Below, one piece after another: positions 4,103-60,245 of a DNA stretch of 64,000 nucleotides. The stretch spans positions 36,642,001 through 36,706,000 of the forward strand of contig CM034546.1 in assembly GCA_020055645.1 (NCBI GenBank). The letters are read 5' to 3'. This DNA is from Tomocerus qinae (lineage: Eukaryota > Arthropoda > Collembola > Entomobryomorpha > Tomoceridae). The number at the start of each line of letters is the position of its first letter. Positions within the stretch are counted from its first letter, which is position 1. The translations under genes were made by a program, and so were the position numbers. The notes under the pieces were generated by a model. It had not been told where the DNA came from, ran no database searches, and worked only from the letters and a program-made list of their open reading frames with translations.

Positions 4103-7100
4103 ATGGAAGACGAAATTAAACAAAATCTTGTTTTCTTGACTGAAAATCTGTCAAATTTAACAATGGTGCTGACATATTTGATTCAATTGGACATCATCTC
4201 TAACGCTGAAAAGGAGGACATTGTAAGTTTACTTATTATTTATTTATTGCTGGCTTTATAATATACCGCATGGCTTCTGGGCATCAAATAATAGGAATAC
4301 CTTACATTTCACCAAGGAGTGTCATTTATTGCTGATAGAAAATGGGATAGACAGTTAGAGAGTATAAAGAAATAGAATCAGTTTCTACAGCCGTTAAATA
4401 TATGAATAAAAGTTGGAATTTAATAAACAATGTGAAAGTCAGGCTGTGATACAAAAGTGTTGTATGAAAAGGAAATAATATTGGTAGGACAAATTTATGG
4501 GATGAGGTTGGCAAATTAAATTAATAAATGTTTTGATAAAAAAGTAAACCGAATTGACTAGCACTCATTCTCAATTAAACTTTGTCAGCAACAGATCATG
4601 AACTGGACTGAAACTTGATAGTTTGGCTCGATCTCTAACTAGCGTTATTTTTTGTGCTTGTGTTATTTTCAAAGAATTTTCCCCAAAGGGAATGGAGATA
4701 CCCCGAATTTCGCCAAATAAGTTCGTATTGATGATTTTACTTGAGGCAATAGAATATTTTAAGTGATATGAACGATTTAAATAATTTAAAGAACTAAGGC
4801 ACTTGGCAGCTCTTTCTTGAAAATTAAAATTAGAAATAAGAAAAATGACACCATATTTGCACTCAGATTTTTTTAACTACAAAACCTGAAAAAATATAGG
4901 TAAAACCATTTTTCAAAAGTCTGCTCTTCAGGAGTCCTAGACAAATACTTTTACTACTTATCTGTTCGGTTCTTTCATTCTCATCGCTGGCAAAAGTCAG
5001 AAGTCACCCTTAATTGACAATCCTTATGTTTAGCAGCTCAGAATGCATATTAACCCATTCGTAGGAGTTGTATTGCTATAGAACAAATCATTGTTTAGTT
5101 AATTCTACTAACCTAAACTAAAACCAACTTGAAGGTTCACTAAAAACGGGTGGCGATCACCGTCTATTTTATATTTCATGATATTCATGAAGGATTTTTA
5201 CTAAATATAGTCGACGATAAATATAGTTTGATGGAGGAAATATTAATTAATATTGCAACTTGAATTTCGATAGTTATAAGATAAAATTTTGTAATAAAAG
5301 TCACAAAAACAGTTTTAACACTCAATTTCTACTTGTAATGGATGTACAACGCTAAACATTCCATGTTGACTTCAAAAGTAGGGAAACTACATATAAAATT
5401 TTACCTTGTTTAGTCGGTCAATGGATTTAGGTTCTTAATTTGTGCGACCCTCTTTTCTAAAAGCTAGTTTAGCTGACTATACCAACTAGGTTTGTAAATG
5501 CTTTCTTCAAATATTATTTGTAGGAGGCAGAAAATACTCCAACTAACAAAAACAACAAACTGCTGTTTACACTGCTAAAGAAAGATTGGAAACTAATCAG
5601 AGATAGGTTTCTAGAAATATTATTGAAAACAAAAAATGATGTTTGTGCACAAAAAATAATTCAAAAATCGAACGTAAGAATGCAAGAATGCGTTCCACCA
5701 CAAACCAAAACCACTCTTTTCCATCCAAAAATAGATCAAAAGTGGTGGCCAGATAAAAAACAGCTAATAAAGTCCCTTCTCAAAAGAAAATTCGGAGAGA
5801 AAATGTTAATTGACGAGCTACAAGAGCGAATTACAAAAGATGAGAATCGAATGGTCGTCATCTGTGAATCTCTAGCTGCGACTAAATATTCGGGGATGGG
5901 AGGAGTCGGCAAAACTCTCACCGCCAAATGGTATGCACACACTTACGAACAAGAATATGATCACATTATATGGATTGATTGCGGAGAAGGCAGTCTCCTC
6001 ACTTCGAAAGCCTGGCCAGAGATTTGGACATCAATCACCTGGAGAAGCTGACGTTAAAAGAAATTGCTGTGAAGAGTTTTAATGAGTTGAAGAATTTCAG
6101 ATGTCTCTGTATTTATGACAATGCAGAAAATTACAAAGGAGAAGACGGAATTATAACTGTCCTCCCAAAAGATTTAGAAAACTTTTATTGCATCATCACG
6201 TCCCGAAGTCGTGAATGGGGAACAGAGACTGGATTCGGGAAAATATCTGACCTGGAACTGGACATTTTTAGTGAAGAAGAAAGTCTGGATTTCTTGAAAA
6301 CCAATTTGAATGCGTCAATAGAGCGCACAGATTTACAACTGAAGGAACTATGTCGACTAATGGGTAATCTTCCATTGGCTCTTCAATTGGCTGTCGCTGC
6401 ACTAAACAATAAAAAAATTGAATTGCAAAATTACATTGGGAAAACTTCTTCGATGGATGTGGGATTCCTTGATGAGAAATTCGATGACTATGAAAAGACA
6501 ATCAACAAAAATATCAAAGTATCGTTAGATTTGATTTTGAAACAGAAAAATGGTAAAATGGCATACGAAATATTAATGATATTTGGATATATTCGACCAG
6601 ACGACGTTCAATCGTTATTTCTATCCAGAGTTTTAAACGTCGACCCAAGTGGAATAGAAGATGCCATAAATTTGTTGGAAAAGTATGCATTGATCACGAA
6701 AACCGGAAAAGTGTTGGAATTTTCCCATAAAGACGGAATAATGAATAAATTATTATGTAGAAACAAAGTAAAGATGGAAATGTCTTTATTGAGTATTCAT
6801 CGACTTCTGCAGCAAGTAATACGTTACAATGGGCTTGAGTCAGAGAATGAGACGCTGAAGAAAATTCTCAGCTGTGCGGGATTTATCGACTACAAATTTA
6901 TTCCGTTTACCAAATACGCTGATGAAAAATTGCAGAAAACATTTCCAAAAGTCAAAGCAGAGTTACTCGATCAAAGACAATTGAGGAAATTGATCGGAGA
7001 AGGAAGAATGGAAGAAGCAGTTGAATTGGCAAAATTTATTAATGGAGAAGTGGACACTCAAACTTCGAAATTTAATTATGCTGTTTGTATGAATAAGAAC

Positions 7101-8783
7101 GGACAAGTTGAGGAATGTGTGGATATCCTTAAAGAACTTTATCTGGAGAAGGGAAGGGAGACGGGAGACAAGGGTATGATCAAAGTTTTAGGAACGATGC
7201 TAAAATACTTGGCGACAATTGATAATATTAAAACAGACGTCGATTTCGAATTGATGGACTTGAAAGTAAATCCAACTGGAAATAAAATCGGAAATATTTT
7301 ATTCTGTATCTATTTGGGTATGGGAAAGTTAGAAGAAGCATTGCTAATTGCAGAAGAAATAGGAGGCGAATCCCACATAATCAAAATTCTACGTGTAACG
7401 TTGAGACAAATAAGATTAAAAGAATCGGTCCAACTGGCGAAGATAATTGCAGAAGAATTGAAATCACAAACATCAAAATTTAATTATGCCATTTGCCTGG
7501 CCAAGAATGGACAAGAGAAGGAATGTGTTGACATCCTGAAGGAATTGGGGAAGGAAGAAATGAAGGAAACGAGAGGGTATTGTAAAGACAGTCTGGAAAT
7601 GGGGATTTTAGGATTGAAAGAAGAATTGTCCAGAGAATTGGTTAATATCCACTTAAAGGTTATTCAATGCAGAATAGAACTGAAAAATGAATCGAAAAGA
7701 AGAAAAGACGCTAAACAAAGTTTGGAGGTAGTTTATTCAGAAGATTCACTTGGCACTTTGATTCGATTAGTCCATTCTGATTTCATAAAGTCCAATTATT
7801 CTCTCATAAAGATAGTAAATAAATCAACACTCAAATTGGAATTGGGAGGAGAATCAGGTAAAATTGATTTGTTTGGATGTTCATTGGATCTTTCATCTTT
7901 CGATCGACTGTCTCCAGAGGAATTGCAGTTAGAGAATGTCTCATTCAATAGAAATGGACGGGAAGTGGAGGAGGCGAATCTCAACGAATTCTGTGACTTC
8001 CACAAAATCAATGAATTGATCCTCATGAGGAGTAAAATGTCTATCGAGTTGAGTGACGAAATCTCCATGGAATATCTTTACTTAAATGAAGTGAAAGTGT
8101 TGAACTGGAAAGAGGCCAGATGGAATATTCAAAGATTAAAATTGTGGGATATTCCATTTGTGGAAAAGACGAAAATGAAAGTCAAAGAGATGGACTTTTG
8201 GAGATCTTCTTTGGACATTTCTTGTCTTCCTCCAACAATTGAAAAACTGCATTTAGATTATGCAAAAGTTGTTTGTGATGAACCAATTGACCTTCCAAAT
8301 CTGAAATATTTGACACTAGAATGGATGTCCGATTCTTCCTTCTTGTCTTCTTTCCGATCTGCCAACCTCACACACATACACTTCGGTAGGACATGGAAAG
8401 TGTATGTAGATCAAATACCCAAAAGCCTCACCCACATTGAAGTAACTAAACTTTTTTTTAGTAGCACGAGAGTTGTTGGTGGAGTGAGGAGAGTGGAGAA
8501 ACTCATTCTATCCGACTGTTCTGTTATAGAAGTGGAGGAATTTTTGGGTCACTTTCAGACAGACGAACTCGTTCTTTACTCTTGGATTACACCAAAAGAG
8601 TTGATTGAGTTGACGAAGAAAGAAATAAAGAGAATTGCAGTCGGACCAGTAAATTGGGACGAAGAAGATTTGTCGGTTCTCTCCAGGCACGTCGACAGAA
8701 AAGCAGATTATTATTTGTGGGGGGGAGGAAGGGGGAGGGGAATGGAGGAGAAAGAGTTTGAGGAGTTAAGGAAAATATATTAA
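4103..8783 (+). CDS. CARD-NB-ARC-TPR-LRR protein (NLR/Apaf-1-like), two exons; one frameshift
   Basis: Exon 1 is 4103-4222 (40 codons, ends ...EKEDI); a GTAAGT donor follows. Exon 2 starts at 5524 after TTGTAG, phase 0, and joins the long frame. Residues 1 to about 85 read as a CARD: six amphipathic helices with the usual L..L...ENL.NL..VL.YL pattern and a second half ending DRFLEIL. Then NB-ARC: P-loop GMGGVGKT (residues 164-171, nt 5893-5916), Walker B-like CIYDNAEN (about 6107-6130), ITSR sensor, NLPLAL (GLPL) motif, winged helix, and an MHD-like IHRLLQQ (about 6798). Two TPR-like repeats (about 7010-7560) share TSKFNYA.C..KNGQ..ECVDILKEL. From about 7750 an irregular LRR solenoid runs to the stop. 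The frame shifts by one base near 6000-6015, where WIDCGEGSLLTS continues as FESLARDLDI in another frame; this is either an error or a lesion. Nine residues (155-163) sit just before the P-loop where other STAND proteins have none. Family knowledge: such proteins oligomerise on ligand binding and recruit CARD partners. The specific role is inference. Confidence 0.82.
4223..5523 (+). other. Intron inside the CARD of the NB-ARC gene
   Basis: 1301 bp, GTAAGT donor and TTTGTAG acceptor with an upstream pyrimidine-rich stretch. Phase 0, cutting the CARD in two at the same place as the intron in the CARD-Rho gene at 54333-55669. No other gene is seen inside it. Confidence 0.75.
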
Positions 8784-33683: not shown

Positions 33684-33750
33684 AAAAAGTAAAAAAACTT
33701 ACCCCAATATCTTCAATATTATGCTCTATAATTTAAGCTATTTAAATTTA
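33684..33750 (-). tRNA. trnF: NUMT trnF (GAA)
   Basis: Minus strand AAATAGCTTAAATTATAGAG start; loop TTGAAGA with GAA. Confidence 0.65.
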
Positions 33751-34690
33751 AAAAAATACAAAAATAAAAACAACCAAGAAAAAAAACATTATTAAATAAG
33801 ATTTTAAATTTAAATTATTAAAAAAATCAATCTTAACTGAACTTTTACCGATTTTTCTATATAAATACTGACCTCTATAATTTTCTAACCAACCTTGATC
33901 AAAATTTTTTAGTAAATAAGAACCGTAAGCTAAAAAAGGAACAAAAAAAGATGTAGAAATATAAGGCAGTAGCCATATTATTCCATGATAAAAAAATATT
34001 AAATTTATCTTAATAATAACAAATAAATTTATAGTAAATATGTTTAAAACTATAATAAATAAAAAAATATTAAACCAAGTATAACCAACATTTTTAATAA
34101 TGAAGGCAATAAAATAATAAAAGAAGGAAAGTAAAATCAAGACATTAAAGAACCTGAAACCACCGATATAGTAAATAAAAAAAACATAGGAATATACATT
34201 AAATAATCTTCAGATAAATTTAATAAACTTTTAATACCTAAGTTTTTAAAAAACAAAAAATAAATTAAACGGAAAGAATACGTTATTGTTATTATAGTAG
34301 AAAAAAAAATAACAATTAATATGAAGTAATTTATTGAACCTATAAAAAATATTTCTAAAATTACATCCTTAGAATAAAATCCTGCTATGAAAGGAAATCC
34401 ACATAAAGCTAAAGAAGAGGCAAAAAAATAAATTGACACTAAAGGCAATCCCTTTAAAATACCCCCTATATAACGAATATCTTGAATATTTCCCATTCCA
34501 TGAATTATTACACCTGCACATAAAAATAATAAAGATTTAAATAAAGCATGACTTAATAAATGAAAAAAAGACAACTCATAAAATCCTAAGGAAAGAGTTA
34601 TTATTATTACCCCTAATTGTCTTAACGTTGAAAGAGCAATAATTTTCTTTAAGTCTATCTCAAAATTAGCACCAAACCCATAACCCGCCC
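33748..34690 (-). pseudogene. nad5: NUMT nad5, 3' part, one frameshift
   Basis: Complex I subunit 5. The visible start reads GFGANFEMDLKKIIALSTL, then FHLLSHALFKSLLFLCAG and FIAGFYSKD. The frame shifts by one base near 34125-34140 and continues through FDQGWLENYRGQ to the stop. Homology ends near 34680-34700, the right border of the NUMT. Confidence 0.85.
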
Positions 34691-35087
34691 CATAACAAAA
34701 ATAATTTTTTCATCAACCCAGTTGTACAACATTTGCGTAATTTATTATATAGAGCTTACACCTCTAACTGAGGCCTTAAGTGCACATTTCTCATGTTGTA
34801 GGGGAATATGAGATATGATACAGCTGCCATCTCTTGTTCTGTTCTGTTATTTACTCGCTCGCTTTGGTGTATTCACTGCATTGCATTTCTTCCAATCCCA
34901 ATAGCCTGCATCTCCCAACCTACAACCTTCCTTACTACGCACACATTGCCTGCTATATATATCATCAGCCCTCTCCTCCTCCAAACTCGCTCATGATCAG
35001 AAGGCAAAAGGCTTCCGCAAAACCAGAATTTAATTATGTGATGGTTGCAAATTGCATTGTTATAAAACTATAAATATCATAATTTAG
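34691..35087. other. Nuclear sequence between NUMT and first visible kinase exon
   Basis: No gene seen. It ends with the AATTTAG acceptor of the first visible receptor-kinase exon, so it is probably intronic and the NUMT may sit inside that intron. Confidence 0.4.
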
Positions 35088-50948: not shown

Positions 50949-52696
50949 TAAAGGCTACCAGAATATTTTATTCACAATATAATCCAAGCTTTCGACAACT
51001 TTCTGTTGTCATCTTCAGGGGATCTAAAGATAAAATGATGAAGATGATAGATATGATTAAATATTTGTGATAGAGAATTAGAACAAACAAATAATAGGTA
51101 TATAATAATGCAAATATGTAGCTACGTAACGGTAAATTGTTTTTTAGGTATATGTGTGAATCTATAAGATAGATTCTAGTAGAGATGACCATAAGGGGTT
51201 AAGAGACAATCCCGAATCCAAATTCATGGTTTCTTTTTGCGAACGAATATACAAGCCTTCTTTTACTTTTCGAATAAAAGCATTTGGTTCTTTTTCAATC
51301 AGTCTTATGGATGGAGGCTTATGATGATAGTTGTGATTTTCAGCGAAATGTAGTGCCACCGCAGAAGACAAAACACGATTGTGACGAATATCAGCTAAAT
51401 GTTCTTTGAATCTTGTAGTATAATCTCTTCCTGTTTCGCCAAAATAACTTGCATGGCATTCTTCGCATTTAAGTTCATAAATACCTGAATTTATGCTTTT
51501 TGGTTTATCTTTATGACTGCATAATTTGTTGTATAGTTTTGGTCCAGGAAAATAACCGAAATCTGTATCTAAAGAAGATTGAATAATCTTGGTAATTCTT
51601 TTAGTCGCATTTCCAATAAAAGGTAGAATGAGACGTTTTTTGTATTCTTTTTCTTTATCAGGTGGAATATTCAACCTTGCTTTTTGAATTTTGATTCTCG
51701 AATCGATTAAATTGACTGGGTAGTTATTCTTAATTAATGCATTAGTAATGTGTTGAATTTCTTCATCAAGATGAATATCTTCACAAATTCTCAATGCACG
51801 GTAGACCAGACTGTCAATCACTGATATTTTATGGCACAAAGGGTGGTAAGAGTTGAAATTTAGATATCTGTCTGTGTGTGTTGGTTTTCTGTATACTTTA
51901 TAGCCAAAATTGTCATTTTTACGGTATAAAAATATATCTAGAAATGGCAATTCCCCGTTTTGTTCATGTTCAGAGGTAAATTGGATGGAAGGGTGGAAAG
52001 AGTTTATGCAGTTTAGAATTTCATCTTGTTTTACTTTGTTCACTATTGCAAAAGTGTCATCTACGTATCTTCGCCAAAATGATATGTCCGGATGGTTTGC
52101 GACTCTTTCATTTTCTAATTTTTGTAAAAATAGTTCACTAAAGATTGGAGAAATAGGAGATCCCATGGCATTTCCATCTTGTTGTAAATACAATTGATCT
52201 CTCCAGCGAAAATAGGTTCCTTGTAAACAAAGTTGTAATAATTGTAACACATCTTCAGAATCTAAACGAGTGACAGTCTTCCATTCTTCGTTTTCTTCCA
52301 GAATAGTTTTAATGTAGATCATTGTTTCTTGGATTGGAACTTTTGTGAAAAGTGAAACAACATCATAAGAAACCATAATATCTTTGTCCTTCAATTTGAT
52401 GTTTTTGATATCCGAGATGAGATCATAGGAATTTTTGATTGAAAAGGTATTTTTTGAAATCAAAGCTGTGAGGATTGGTTTTAGATAGATAGCTAAATTG
52501 TAACTTGGAGAATCTCGAAAATCTACTATCGGACGTAATGGAATATTGTCCTTATGAATTTTCGGTGAACCATAGAATATAGGACATCTATATGTTGTTT
52601 TCGAAATGAAATCTTTATCGTGTTTGGAGATTTCATTATTCTTGAAAAATAATGAGCAAAGTGTTCTGATTCGTTTCCCTTGGTCGTCTAAATTCA
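50949..52696 (-). mobile_element. Penelope-like element, copy A, 5'-truncated
   Basis: Contains the RT/GIY-YIG frame and a 3' untranslated region of about 210 bp that ends near TTTATCCGAAAAAA. It lacks the N-terminal part of the ORF. An inverted partner (copy C) lies at 52913-53990. Confidence 0.85.
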
Positions 52697-52697
52697 A
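51162..52697 (-). CDS. Penelope-like reverse transcriptase with GIY-YIG endonuclease (N-terminally truncated)
   Basis: 511 residues, uninterrupted. RT motifs: YGSPKIHKDNIPLRPIVDF, VSYDVVSLFTKVPI (motif A), QQDGNAMGSPISPIFSELF (motif B), and FWRRYVDDTFAIV (motif C, YVDD). The C-terminal GIY-YIG nuclease has SGIYELKCEECHASYFGETGRDY..RFKEH. This domain order is diagnostic of Penelope-like elements. The usual N-terminal extension before the first RT motifs is missing, so the copy is probably dead on its own. The frame is nevertheless intact, which points to recent insertion. Confidence 0.9.
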   Translation of the reverse strand: MNLDDQGKRIRTLCSLFFKNNEISKHDKDFISKTTYRCPIFYGSPKIHKDNIPLRPIVDFRDSPSYNLAIYLKPILTALISKNTFSIKNSYDLISDIKNIKLKDKDIMVSYDVVSLFTKVPIQETMIYIKTILEENEEWKTVTRLDSEDVLQLLQLCLQGTYFRWRDQLYLQQDGNAMGSPISPIFSELFLQKLENERVANHPDISFWRRYVDDTFAIVNKVKQDEILNCINSFHPSIQFTSEHEQNGELPFLDIFLYRKNDNFGYKVYRKPTHTDRYLNFNSYHPLCHKISVIDSLVYRALRICEDIHLDEEIQHITNALIKNNYPVNLIDSRIKIQKARLNIPPDKEKEYKKRLILPFIGNATKRITKIIQSSLDTDFGYFPGPKLYNKLCSHKDKPKSINSGIYELKCEECHASYFGETGRDYTTRFKEHLADIRHNRVLSSAVALHFAENHNYHHKPPSIRLIEKEPNAFIRKVKEGLYIRSQKETMNLDSGLSLNPLWSSLLESIL

Positions 52698-52912
52698 AAA
52701 GCAAGGTTGAATATTCCACCTGATAAAGAAAAAGAATACAAAAAACGTCTCATTCTACCTTTTATTGGAAATGCGACTAAAAGAATTACCAAGATTATTC
52801 AATCTTCTTTAGATACAGATTTCGGTTATTTTCCTGGACCAAAACTATACAACAAATTATGCAGTCATAAAGATAAACCAAAAAGCATAAATTCAGGTAT
52901 TTATGAACTTGC
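52697..52912 (+). mobile_element. Penelope-like element, short fragment B
   Basis: A 216-bp piece coding for KARLNIPPDKEKEYKKRL up to NSGIYEL, i.e. the region between RT and the nuclease. It begins exactly where copy A ends and is fused at its 3' side to copy C. Confidence 0.8.
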
Positions 52913-53990
52913 ATAAACTCTTTCCACCCTTCCATCCAATTTACCTCTGAACATGAACAAAACGGGGAATTGCCATTTCTAGATATATTTTTATACCGTA
53001 AAAATGACAATTTTGGCTATAAAGTATACAGAAAACCAACACACACAGACAGATATCTAAATTTCAACTCTTACCACCCTTTGTGCCATAAAATATCAGT
53101 GATTGACAGTCTGGTCTACCGTGCATTGAGAATTTGTGAAGATATTCATCTTGATGAAGAAATTCAACACATTACTAATGCATTAATTAAGAATAACTAC
53201 CCAGTCAATTTAATCGATTCGAGAATCAAAATTCAAAAAGCAAGGTTGAATATTCTACCTGATAAAGAAAAAGAATACAAAAAACGTCTCATTCTACCTT
53301 TTATTGGAAATGCGACTAAAAGAATTACCAAGATTATTCAATCTTCTTTAGATACAGATTTCGGTTATTTTCCTGGACCAAAACTATACAACAAATTATG
53401 CAGTCATAAAGATAAACCAAAAAGCATAAATTCAGGTATTTATGAACTTAAATGCGAAGAATGCCATGCAAGTTATTTTGGCGAAACAGGAAGAGATTAT
53501 ACTACAAGATTCAAAGAACATTTAGCTGATATTCGTCACAATCGTGTTTTGTCTTCTGCGGTGGCACTACATTTCACTGAAAATCACAACTATCATCATA
53601 AGCCTCCATCCATAAGACTGATTGAAAAAGAACCAAATGCTTTTATTCGAAAAGTAAAAGAAGGCTTGTATATTCGTTCGCAAAAAGAAACCATGAATTT
53701 GGATTCGGGATTGTCTCTTAACCCCTTATGGTCATCTCTACTAGAATCTATCTTATAGATTCACACATATACCTAAAAAACAATTTACCGTTACGTAGCT
53801 ACATATTTGCATTATTATATACCTATTATTTGTTTGTTCTAATTCTCTATCACAAATATTTAATCATATCTATCATCTTCATCATTTTATCTTTAGATCC
53901 CCTGAAGATGACAACAGAAAGTTGTCGAAAGCTTGGATTATATTGTGAATAAAATATTCTGGTAGCCTTTATCCGAAAAAAATGAATTGC
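52913..53990 (+). mobile_element. Penelope-like element, copy C (C-terminal RT and nuclease, 3' end)
   Basis: Begins inside the FHPSIQFTSEHEQNGELPF region and is open to 53758 (LWSSLLESIL), then continues through the 3' untranslated region. Nearly identical to copy A in opposite orientation, with few differences (LPPDKE/LPDKE-type change near 53250, AENH/TENH). Its start from Met at 52970 is only the first ATG; the copy is truncated. Confidence 0.85.
53902..53930 (+). ncRNA. Hammerhead-ribozyme-like motif in the Penelope 3' region (also inverted in copy A)
   Basis: CTGAAGA (CUGANGA box) is followed by T, then a perfect hairpin GACAAC-AGAAA-GTTGTC, then GAAA. This is the core of a hammerhead with stem II, except for one extra U before the stem. 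Penelope-like elements are known to carry hammerheads. A cleavage triplet with stems I and III was not resolved. Confidence 0.4.
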
Positions 53991-54332
53991 TACAAAATTT
54001 GTTGTCAATTTATTTAAATCTTTTAAAACCAAGATCCTAAATTTGAATGTTTATTTAAAAGGATTTATTCGCCAATATTGATATATAAAGTAAGTATTTT
54101 TATCTGATTTATACATGAAATCGATATCGTTAATATTCAAATTAAAAAAGTACACAATTAAAATACAATTATTAATTTTTTTCATTTAAACCGCATCCAT
54201 TATAGTCACATAACTATGCAACAGCCCTGTTCAGATCTGCTCTTCTAAAATAAATTCAAAAATAATTTCTGAGTCTGAATAAACTTTTCGTCTCAACAAG
54301 ATTTTAAAACGCTCAATGTTTTATTATCTTCA
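53991..54332. other. Intergenic, nothing recognised
   Basis: AT-rich sequence downstream of the CARD-Rho gene (minus strand). If the Rho gene has a further 3' exon it should be here or beyond. Confidence 0.35.
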
Positions 54333-55669
54333 TTATGAATATCTTACCAATGCCAATGTTATTTGTATAATAGTTGGCAAGATGTCTTTCATTCCTTCGC
54401 CTGTCTTTGCCGAGCATTCGAAGTATGCCTTAGCTCCTATGTTCTTTGCTGTTTGTTGTCCTTCTTTGGTGGTTACAATTCTACTTCGTTCACAATCGTT
54501 CTCAGTATTTCGCAAATCCAGTTTAGTTCCCACCAAAAAAATAGGAACTTTTGGGCAAAAATGTTTAAATTCAGGTACCCATTTTGCCTCTGCATTTGAA
54601 AGTGAGTTGTAGTTATTTATAGAAAACACGAGAATACAAATATCCGTTTTGGGGTAACTTAAGGGACGTAATACGTCGTACTCCTCTTGACCGGCGGTGT
54701 CCCAAATGGCAAGATTGACCTATAAATCACATTTTTAATTAAGCTATGGTAGTTTTAACAGTGACTATAAAAGAAAAACCTACCAGACAGTTGTCCACTT
54801 TCACAAAAGTTTGATGATTGTCAAAAACGGTTGGAATATATTCTTCAGGAAATATTCCCGCCGTCCAAACTATATTCATGCACGTTTTACCAGTACAACC
54901 GTCTCCAATCACAACAAGCTTTTTAATTCCTGATATAATATTATCCTGTTTTGCGATTGGCTTTTCGATTTCAGAAACTACTACTACCTGCAAAAAAATA
55001 AATAAAAAGGTATCACATTTTAGAATTCCAGTTTTTGCCTATGAATTTAGGCTTACCTTTTTATTATCTTCAGGACTGTCTTCTGGTAGCGTATTTTTCT
55101 CTTTAATGGAAATATATCTTGTTTTGGATGCAGCAACAATATCTTCGACTCGGAGGACATCCACCAGCTCTTGAACTTTGTCCAAAAGTGGATTTATTCG
55201 ATCGTAATTAACTGGAGAATTAGTTAAGTCTAAAGTAAATTGCTGAGAAAAACGAATCGCTTGCGAAGTTCCGTTATTTGTGTCTAAAACTTTGGCTATG
55301 TGATCGTTACAAGTTTCCTTTAAGGCTTTTAAAAGTTTGTCTTTTGTTCCTGGTCCTTTCCTTGTTAATAAACGCATTAAATTATACACTTGATCTTCGT
55401 GAGTTGAATGAGATTCCTAAAAGATCAAAGGAAAATGTTAAATATACACATACCATTAAAATATTAAACTACATTTACATACGCTTGGTTAAATCAAGTA
55501 GGTTGATAGCTAAAGCAAATAGAAATTGATTTACAATAGTTTCTTTCTCTACTGGAAGAATGACACCACTTTGAATCAAGTGAATATTAAGTAGTCCAAT
55601 GTTTGTCGTCCTTTGAGTTATGAAGACAATATTTTTTAATACATTTGACTCCAGATCTTCTACTTCCAT
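54333..55669 (-). CDS. CARD-Rho family GTPase fusion, four exons
   Basis: Exons (minus strand): 55669-55535, 55416-55057, 54987-54784, 54719-54333. All introns are phase 0 with GT/AG sites. Protein about 361 residues. Residues 1 to about 80 form a [32 protein letters not shown] then, after the intron, [23 protein letters not shown] and HIAKVL, the classic second-half CARD pattern. A linker of about 85 residues follows. The GTPase has G1 GDGCTGKT, switch [11 protein letters not shown]3 [11 protein letters not shown]4 GTKLDL and G5 ECSAKTG, plus the Rho signature [10 protein letters not shown]. It should bind GTP and act as a switch on actin or NADPH-oxidase-type effectors (family knowledge). 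The C-terminus (LALVRYS) lacks a CAAX box. A GGTAAGA just before the stop could be a splice donor to a missing last exon. In the G1 loop the usual Ala-Val is Cys-Thr. Confidence 0.85.
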
Positions 55670-58286: not shown

Positions 58287-59754
58287 TCAAAGCTTTGGAT
58301 AGGAAATAAGTAGCGAAGTGACGATATTGGTACCGGCGTCAATACAGTCGAGGGTGTGTTTGGATTTTACAGCTTTGAAAATGCCATAACGAATCCCAAA
58401 TGTAGCTGTACTGGTGAGCAGTTTCTTATAATACAGTTTGTTCCGAGTGGTTTTAAGCAGTTCTATTTGGAGTGCATTTAGTGTTTCTGTAGAGTATTTG
58501 TCACAGAGAGAGTACGTCAACAAGACGAACGAAAGAGCGAATCCGGATATAAGGCAGATTGAAACCAGCAGAATTACTATTATCAGGCCTTCTGAATTTT
58601 GTCGGATGACTGCAAAGAAAGCAAATGACGCAACAGCCAATACATAATATATAGCTGCGGGAACGTGACATCTTAGAAGACAGTCATTGAATAAAATAAT
58701 TAAAACTCTCAGCCCATTAAAAGTTTGTATTCTTTTTTGAAGATCAGCCTTGCTTTCCCTATGGAAACACATTATTACTAATTAATATGCGTGTTAGTTC
58801 AAATTCAAATTTGAAGCAAAACATTGACTAAATATCAGAACTTCATAAGTATGTTTCTAATATATTTTTCCTTTATAGTAAAATATGTTGTATGCATTCT
58901 TTTAAGTTTTCAAAAACATGCCTTATCATATGCAGGAAGAAACAGATCCTTGTTGAGCACAAGAATGTGAAACAAAGAAACAAAGATATTGAGAAAACTT
59001 TCAATATCCCCACGAAATAATGTTGAACAAAGATGACAATGGAGGACAGTCCCATCCCTTCAAAAGCCCAAGCAAAACGATGTCTTCCCGGAATCACATA
59101 ATATAAAGCATGAGAGGCCAACCCTAAAGATATCGTGTATACCCCTACTATCCATTTGGAAAATAAAGTTTCGGCATAAACGAATAGTTTGAATTTCGTC
59201 GTGGATGTTTCACGCCAACCTGATTTGGAGTATTAACAGATTAATTAATTGATATGGACAATAAATTATATGCTTCTAAAATAGATGCAAGAATAATGTC
59301 GATGATATTAATGATCATAGGAGTAAATACCTTCAGCAATGATTGGGAATCCTTTAAGGTCCATTTGATTTAAGACGTGCGCAATTTCAACCCTTTTTGT
59401 TCTCAGATTACATAATGAAATGATGGCCATTATATACGTAGTCATAATCATGTAGACAATCACAAATTTCAAATTGATATTCTCGTCTGAACGAAGCATG
59501 AGTACTAATTGAATTGCTTCGTAAATTGCAAGTACAATTAAACATATTATATGAATGCTTAATATGGGAGATGCCCTGGGTTCAAACAATTTACTAGCTT
59601 TACTATATTTTGTTGGATTATGTCCGAAGAAAATATTAAAATAAAACCCAATCCATTGTAAACTTTCATAGCCGGAGAAGTTCTTTGTATCTGGAATGAT
59701 ACTGGCTTTTACCTGTTCTTTCCAAAGTGCCCAGGGAATAGAAATAGGTCGCAT
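58287..59754 (-). CDS. Seven-pass gustatory-receptor-like protein, three exons, one GC-AG intron
   Basis: Exons: 59754-59331, 59219-58922, 58758-58287; together 397 codons, the usual size of arthropod Gr proteins. Intron 1 uses GTATTT/CAG. Intron 2 needs a GC donor (AG|GCATGT) to keep the frame; the GT four bases on would lead to a stop. About seven hydrophobic helices: ILSIHIICLIVLAIYEAI, VIVYMIMTTYIMAIISL, WIVGVYTISLGLASHAL, GLSSIVIFVQHYFV, VFSISLFLCFTFLC, AIYYVLAVASFAFFAVI and LIIVILLVSICLISGFALSF. No TYhhhhhQF Gr signature is seen, so assignment to the Gr family rests on size, topology and repeated occurrence in the window (also 21721 and 60246). Likely a chemosensory ion channel (inference). 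Confidence 0.6.
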
Positions 59755-60245
59755 ACTGACACAAATGGCGATTTGTTAAGCAATTTTGGAAGTTGATCTG
59801 ACTGCGGATAAATACATTTTCACTTAATACGAAATTGCAATAAGTTTCAAAAAATGTAATATAAATAAAAACTTTTGAATACTTATATGTGTAATTAGTT
59901 TTTAAAACTACTTGATTTGTTTGATTTGTTTGATTTGTTTGATTTTTAGTGCCTTACCAAATAAAAACAATTAGCGTTTTAAAGTGTGCAAGTAAAATAA
60001 ATTTTATTTAGATGTACAGAAATTGTTGTTTACGTTAAGTTTTCTAGTTTGGAGTTCAAGACCATTTGTACTGATTTTCTACGAGTGGCTTTATTTATAT
60101 TTATATCCAGATATCCTCCTGTAACTTTCGGTGAGCTAGTTAATATCTCGTACATTATTCCGTACAAACTTCCGTCGTTTAAGACGACGTGTTAAAACTA
60201 TAGTTAGGACATGGCATAGCTAACATTTTATAGTTTATTTACACT
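59755..60245. other. Intergenic; short (GATTTGTTT)n at 59912-59945
   Basis: Four units of a 9-bp repeat. No gene seen. Confidence 0.5.

Follow-up and report, generated by a model that had tools for sequence, protein, structure and literature searches.

In Tomocerus qinae (Collembola), a CARD and a Rho GTPase are, judging by the sequence, encoded by one real gene. It lies in the window, the 64,000-nucleotide stretch of contig CM034546.1 that was analysed (C1:36642001-36706000), and runs on the minus strand from 55669 to 54206, where five exons encode 369 codons and a stop. Two other copies are found on C1, namely P2 (36469148-36470670, 226 kb from the fusion gene) and P3 (about 36456.8-36458.3 kb, 238 kb from the fusion gene). 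CARDs serve for docking in sensors of the inflammasome and apoptosome types. We tentatively regard the product as a Rho-family GTPase, restricted to its lineage, that has a CARD at the N-terminus and a signal for membrane anchoring, and that would be recruited or clustered by CARD-bearing sensors.

Gene model

The five exons measure 135, 360, 204, 372 and 39 bases, and all introns are GT-AG introns of phase 0. Exon 1 (55535-55669) encodes the first half of the CARD, and its start codon precedes by five residues the point at which the CARDs of other genes begin. Exon 2 (55057-55416) encodes the second half of the CARD, at about 55416-55285, as well as the greater part of the linker, exon 3 (54784-54987) the end of the linker followed by G1 (GDGCTGKT) and switch I, and exon 4 (54348-54719) switch II (WDTAGQ), G4 (TKLD) and G5 (CSAK). 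Exon 5 (54206-54244), whose acceptor is TTTATTTTAG, encodes KSRSEQGCCIVM and the stop, including a CAAX box with a second cysteine (CCIVM). In the spliced protein, the CARD occupies residues 30-89, the linker about residues 91-186 and the Ras/Rho domain residues 188-352, the domains spanning 54348-55669. Two possible poly(A) signals were read by eye on the same strand, an AATAAA at 54064-54069, about 140 bases past the stop, and a second one at 54050-54055.

The original prediction comprised four exons with consistent splice sites and phases, and these correspond to exons 1 to 4 above (55669-55535, 55416-55057, 54987-54784 and 54719-54348), all GT-AG and phase 0. The gene is nevertheless longer than predicted, with five exons and not four. 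The end proposed at 54333, with the C-terminus LVRYS, is a read-through into the intron past the exon 4 donor TTG|GTAAGA at 54347; the true end is on exon 5, at 54206.

With regard to intron 1, four of the five donors tried with the standard acceptor (55482, 55478, 55472 and 55469) close the frame early, with a stop after 64-76 codons. Four other models, with acceptors within exon 2, are open, but their CARDs score 27.9-35.1 bits versus 50.4 bits, and the extended exon 1 that they need runs into a stop soon after in P2. Every open alternative model keeps the CARD joined to Rho.

Identity of the CARD

Pfam CARD (PF00619) matches residues 30-89 of the spliced protein with 27.6 bits (E 2.9e-6; cut-off 23.9). 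Exon 2 alone reaches 18.9 bits, under the cut-off, with a match that starts at profile position 42, and exon 1 alone matches no Pfam family, so the join of the two exons supplies the missing CARD half. An independent HMM was built, with the fusion gene left out, from five CARDs found elsewhere in the genome (in the gene at 4103 and in L004, L006 and L007), of which one is a fragment. The spliced fusion CARD scored 50.3 bits with this HMM (E 2.8e-14 in 3042 sequences), compared to 11.6 bits for the best of 2000 shuffles, and is therefore more than a chance match. The score was 52.4 bits for P2, 17.4 for exon 1 alone, 22.9 for exon 2 alone and 31.8 for the reversed exon order. Among 1037 frames of the window, four exceed the best shuffle, and these are exons in unspliced form, two from the gene at 4103 (61.8 and 56.2 bits; training data) and two from the fusion gene (20.4 and 19.7 bits). 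The proposal that the N-terminal residues form a CARD is thus borne out by Pfam, above its cut-off, and by the HMM of the genome's own CARDs.

When compared with the PDB on its own, the fusion CARD matches a single chain at E <= 10, NOL3, with an E of 1.7, which we counted as adverse evidence. A mixed profile of the fusion CARD and the five other CARDs matches 73 chains at E <= 1, and the matches listed include CARD8 (9.5e-9), CED-3 (2e-6), cIAP1, RAIDD, NOD1, APAF1 and caspase-9. Among the best 60 of these 73 chains, we take 57 to be CARD-bearing proteins, the other three being designed proteins. A structure prediction of exon 2 alone, with half a CARD as input, was poor (pLDDT 55.7).

The linker contains a constrained motif at residues 115-144 (55120-55209, minus strand), in which 1 of 30 residues differs in P2 and 4 of 30 in P3. 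This element has no match to any family, and residues 91-187 have no match in the PDB (best E 1.3).

The Rho GTPase

Pfam Ras (PF00071) matches residues 188-352 of the spliced protein with an E of 3.8e-46. All G motifs are intact by sequence (GDGCTGKT, switch I, DTAGQ, TKLD and CSAK), so the predicted order of a CARD followed by a complete set of Rho G motifs holds. The only NCBIfam matches above cut-offs are to small GTPases, and the Pfam scan of the fusion protein returned no NB-ARC or NACHT module. The best PDB match is RhoA (1.5e-55), and the best 60 of 794 matches are all Rho/Rac family chains or fusions thereof. The region of the Rho insert, between G4 and G5, is present but about five residues shorter than in RhoA. 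The CAAX box on exon 5 (CIVM-stop) constitutes a membrane-anchor signal, and lipidation is predicted: when Met is the last residue of a CAAX box, farnesyl is favoured, and an extra cysteine beside the CAAX cysteine could be palmitoylated. In switch I, a His (FDNH) stands in place of the Tyr found at the Rho1-, Rac- and Cdc42-type loci, as it also does in the Mtl-like L050, and the tail contains two K/R residues versus six in Rho1. As a result, the usual effectors and targeting should not be assumed.

The first intron of the GTPase (NCL|VNL) has the same codon and phase (0) as that of the Rho1-type L036 (GKQ|VEL), and is also common to L039 and L040; by eye, the last intron is displaced by one codon. 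No intron is present at the first-intron codon in L041, L042, L043, L048, L050, L052, L056 and L057, which we named Rac-, Cdc42- or Mtl-like, and L033 and L038 are also unbroken through it. In a tree of 19 Rho sequences, from which the RhoBTB-like L051 was left out, the window copy and P2 group together (100/100) on a long branch, which is placed, with modest support (82.8/78), with the Rac/Cdc42/Mtl-like sequences and not with Rho1. The tree and the shared intron conflict. We lean towards descent of the GTPase from an intron-bearing gene of the Rho family, and leave the subfamily of this ancestor unnamed.

Copies of the fusion gene and selection

A six-frame search of the 334 Mb genome (115 contigs) with residues 1-165 returned 76 rows at E <= 10, the top seven of which are the fusion gene, P2 and P3. 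In P2, each of the five exons has a counterpart of identical phase, and the CAAX exon ends in CCCKMM-stop. However, a stop replaces the Trp of WDTAGQ, and the exon 2 donor (GTCATC) is weak. In P3, the CARD and the linker are followed by what remains of Rho; this copy is interrupted by stops, its exon 2 contains an insertion and its Rho part a deletion. Both look like pseudogenes. All three copies, as read from their DNA, once had the CARD-linker-Rho order, and the window copy is the sole one of them with an open frame.

Between the window copy and P2, the exons share 72-86% DNA identity, whereas introns 1, 2 and 4 are no more alike than their shuffled versions (50 per intron). The exception is intron 3, of 64 bases, with an identity of 0.83 versus at most 0.80 in shuffles, and this too was counted as adverse. 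Exon 2 is 82% identical at the amino acid level over 117 codons, and exon 5 shares 6 of 12 aligned residues with its counterpart. Over 365 codon pairs (Nei-Gojobori), dS is 0.815, dN is 0.154 and dN/dS is 0.19, which argues for an old fusion that was kept under selection. The ratio is 0.108 for the CARD (90 codons), 0.178 for the linker (92 codons) and 0.227 for Rho (171 codons), with dS of 0.71-0.78 across the three. For exons 1 to 4, it amounts to 0.13, 0.14, 0.11 and 0.275, exon 4 being the least constrained large exon; exon 5 (12 codons, dN 0.76, dS undefined) is too short and too diverged for a ratio. In a three-way comparison of two exon 2 stretches (91 codons, the last few loosely aligned), dN/dS is 0.15 for the window copy and P2, 0.16 for the window copy and P3, and 0.41 for P2 and P3 (dS 0.12). 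The split between P2 and P3 is thus late, and much of the constraint probably predates their decay or is on the lineage of the window copy. These comparisons of coding sequence show that the fusion predates its duplication, with purifying selection on the CARD, the linker and Rho.

Search for relatives of the fusion

A search of 5.8 billion proteins with the whole protein gave 3049 matches, and PF00619 is absent from the best 120, among which a full-length relative of the fusion should rank high. Four of the longer proteins among the top Rho matches (P0004, P0006, P0008 and P0010) are tandem Rho proteins and were rejected as relatives. With residues 1-185, none of the 351 candidates reached E <= 1. 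The search depends on shared five-residue words and on lengths of 0.55-1.75 times the query, and the host may have few annotated relatives, so that "not found" here differs from "absent". Among the papers listed by literature searches, none reports a CARD-Rho fusion. The statement that no standard family has this fusion therefore agrees with the matches listed in this protein set.

CARDs elsewhere in the genome

The window contains another gene with a homologous CARD. Its CARD exon 1 (4103-4222, plus strand) is joined, by the same phase-0 intron, to an NB-ARC-like exon, and the remainder (5524-8783, plus strand) comprises the other CARD half, the NB-ARC and repeats, which makes it a candidate member of a partner family. 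Exon 1 of the fusion gene is 35% identical to this exon over 40 amino acids (E 7.6e-6 in a 124-kb search set), and the two end at the same codon. The NB-ARC of the gene at 4103 scores 18.7 bits, under the cut-off of 23.5, and its frame shifts between about 5980 and 6050, so that the gene reads as a pseudogene or an assembly error.

The CARD intron is found at the identical codon in all 17 other CARD first exons inspected (5 + 12), which suggests that homotypic partners exist in the genome. The 12 derive from 13 loci (L017-L029) in which they are the complete or near-complete first exons, all with a GT donor at the shared codon; L027 has no exon 1, and one further partial row (i-E 0.01) has no GT donor at this codon. 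The best Pfam CARD match in the genome, L001, is unbroken over profile positions 2-59 and lacks this intron. Beyond the fusion copies, 60 of the 76 rows are exon-1-like pieces, individually weak (E 0.009-9.5) and mostly unverified candidates. The fusion had been suggested to be the effector of a CARD-bearing sensor such as the gene at 4103. As this gene has a homologous CARD (35% identity, same intron), a role as effector of such a sensor is a fair hypothesis, but the gene at 4103 is frame-shifted, and nothing sets it apart from the rest: at least 16 further CARD first exons were inspected, and the candidate rows number about 60 in all.

Partner domains were scanned at a few loci. NB-ARC is found beside the CARD at L025 (5.1e-13), and the CARD-NB-ARC family includes the gene at 4103-8783 of the window, L004, L006, L007 and L025 and may extend to the approximately 60 candidate rows, all but one on C1. 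A protein search with the NB-ARC exon of L007, which resembles bacterial NB-ARC/TPR proteins, gave 101 matches, mostly bacterial by name or unnamed, and one from a stick insect (Dryococelus). Apparent joins of a CARD and a dsRBD are found at L020 (C1:79624604-79625450, minus strand) and L021 (C1:132548509-132549388, plus strand). The Pfam CARD E-value is 1.3e-8 for the L020 join, and that of the dsRBD is 5.6e-8 at L020 and 5.7e-9 at L021; at both loci the domains lie within about 0.9 kb, alike in strand and order. With their putative splice sites, these loci may encode an invertebrate CARD-type RNA sensor. Five more dsRBD relatives are located at 9.9-13.0 Mb of C1 (E 4e-9 to 0.003). At L029/L062 (C1:79625500-79633300), a pair of CARD exons precedes an open frame of 389 aa whose C-terminal part has hydrophobic stretches, and 201 aa of this frame were scanned with no Pfam match; a second frame further down is NB-ARC-like by eye and may be part of the same gene.

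Comparison with known systems

With the classical Rho GTPases (RhoA, Rac, Cdc42, Mtl), the fusion shares all G motifs, DTAGQ and the CAAX box, and with the Rho1-type L036 the codon and phase of the intron in front of VNLAIWD. It differs from them by its N-terminal CARD and linker, together about 185 aa, as well as by a shorter insert, the FDNH switch I, few basic tail residues and the CAAX-terminal Met. In comparison to the CARD-NB-ARC (Apaf-1/NLR-like) genes of the genome, it exhibits a homologous CARD with the same phase-0 intron, and a GTPase where those have an NB-ARC and repeats. The CARD adaptors and effectors CARD8, CED-3, RAIDD, RIPK2 and cIAP1 likewise join a docking CARD to an output domain, which is a protease, a kinase or a ligase in their case and a Rho switch in the fusion. 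DAPK1 and the Roco proteins contain a Ras-like Roc domain within a multi-domain protein, along with a death domain in DAPK1; in contrast to the fusion, the GTPase is Roc and not Rho, and no CARD is present.

PMC4196510 reports that in rice, OsRac1 binds Pit at its NB-ARC and drives ROS, and that human Rac1 co-precipitates with NOD1 and NOD2, and PMC8084149 reports that pyrin senses RhoA inactivation and that NOD1 and NLRP3 respond to Rac activation. In the immunity of animals and plants alike, Rho GTPases thus come together with NLR-type sensors more than once, in these accounts through separate proteins; OsRac1-Pit, Rac1-NOD1/NOD2 and pyrin-RhoA resemble the fusion in tying Rho GTPases to NLR/inflammasome signalling, whereas the link in the fusion is covalent.

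Possible function

Given a docking domain, a switch with intact motifs and a membrane-anchor signal, recruitment by CARD-bearing sensors is the most economical reading, and the one that we favour, tentatively. The CAAX cysteine and its neighbour would carry lipids and hold the protein at the membrane. CARD-NB-ARC or CARD-dsRBD sensors would oligomerise, and their CARDs would capture that of the fusion, after which clustering or exposure to a GEF would drive the GTPase to its GTP form and launch a local Rho-family output, e.g., actin or oxidase. The conserved linker may couple or restrain the CARD and the GTPase. Several observations count against this reading, in addition to the lone NOL3 match and the similarity of intron 3: the candidate sensor of the window is itself frame-shifted, exon 4 is the least constrained large exon, switch I and the tail are unusual, the structure prediction of exon 2 is poor, and the gene may be dispensable, since two of its three copies look dead. 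A wider version is possible but more speculative, in which a two-exon phase-0 CARD cassette was shuffled onto NB-ARC sensors, a dsRBD and a Rho switch, giving this animal lineage a CARD network of its own; within it, a sensor, once activated, would itself recruit a Rho GTPase at the membrane and trigger it. The all-phase-0 boundaries would fit such exon shuffling. If true, a single protein would link CARD polymer signalling to the cytoskeleton or the oxidase, for which the known cases use separate proteins. The fusion, kept under selection in a genome with many homologous CARDs, would offer a natural minimal system in which to ask if the clustering of CARDs suffices to switch a Rho GTPase, and an example of how the innate immunity of an invertebrate line is rewired by domain shuffling.

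The strongest rival, which we consider unlikely, runs in the opposite direction: Rho would be an integrated bait, a decoy presented to the microbial factors that act on Rho proteins by modification or cleavage, and the CARD would be the output, nucleating CARD signalling once Rho is altered. The Thr and Asn of switch I, the Gln of switch II and CAAX-type residues are common targets of microbial factors, and all are kept in the fusion, while two dead copies are consistent with a fast turnover. Mammals guard Rho proteins indirectly, through pyrin, NOD1 and NLRP3, according to PMC8084149. However, Rho keeps all G motifs under purifying selection (0.23), more like a working switch, an argument that is tempered by the fact that a decoy may likewise need to stay Rho-like.

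Improbable, to our mind, is a CARD-based brake, which would cap or titrate the CARDs of NB-ARC proteins or caspases at the membrane, as CARD-only inhibitors do, with the GTPase mainly ensuring localisation. The membrane-anchor signal would suit this role, as would the kinship of the CARD with those found on NB-ARC genes, but the intact catalytic motifs and the selection on the GTPase do not. Slightly less probable again is a non-immune regulator of cell death with an Apaf-1/Dronc-type apoptosome as its target. In its favour, the CARDs of APAF1, CED-3 and caspase-9 are among the matches to the mixed profile. Against it stands, with little weight, the closeness of the fusion CARD to the CARDs of NB-ARC-type genes, the group of this genome that the comparison covered. 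Finally, it is very improbable that the locus holds a pair of neighbouring genes, or a gene that died recently, and not a functional fusion, for although stops are found in P2 and P3, the frame of the window copy remains open over 369 codons from a start just upstream of the usual CARD start (five residues) to a CAAX stop, dN/dS is 0.19 versus P2, and the exon order is identical in the three copies.

Other features of the window

The Rfam scan of the window gave no match. Just downstream of the fusion gene, two Penelope-like retroelement copies are found in inverted orientation (51162-52754, minus strand, and 52907-53758, plus strand); RVT_1 was matched on the former, the remaining assignment being made by eye. 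Mitochondrial ND5 frames are present at 33748-34709 on the minus strand (Pfam 6.3e-28 and 7.6e-11), and this stretch of nuclear DNA is probably a NUMT. The region 59308-59775, also on the minus strand, exhibits a possible chemosensory receptor, in keeping with an arthropod host, with a 7tm_7 score of 24.7 bits, just below the cut-off of 26.6.
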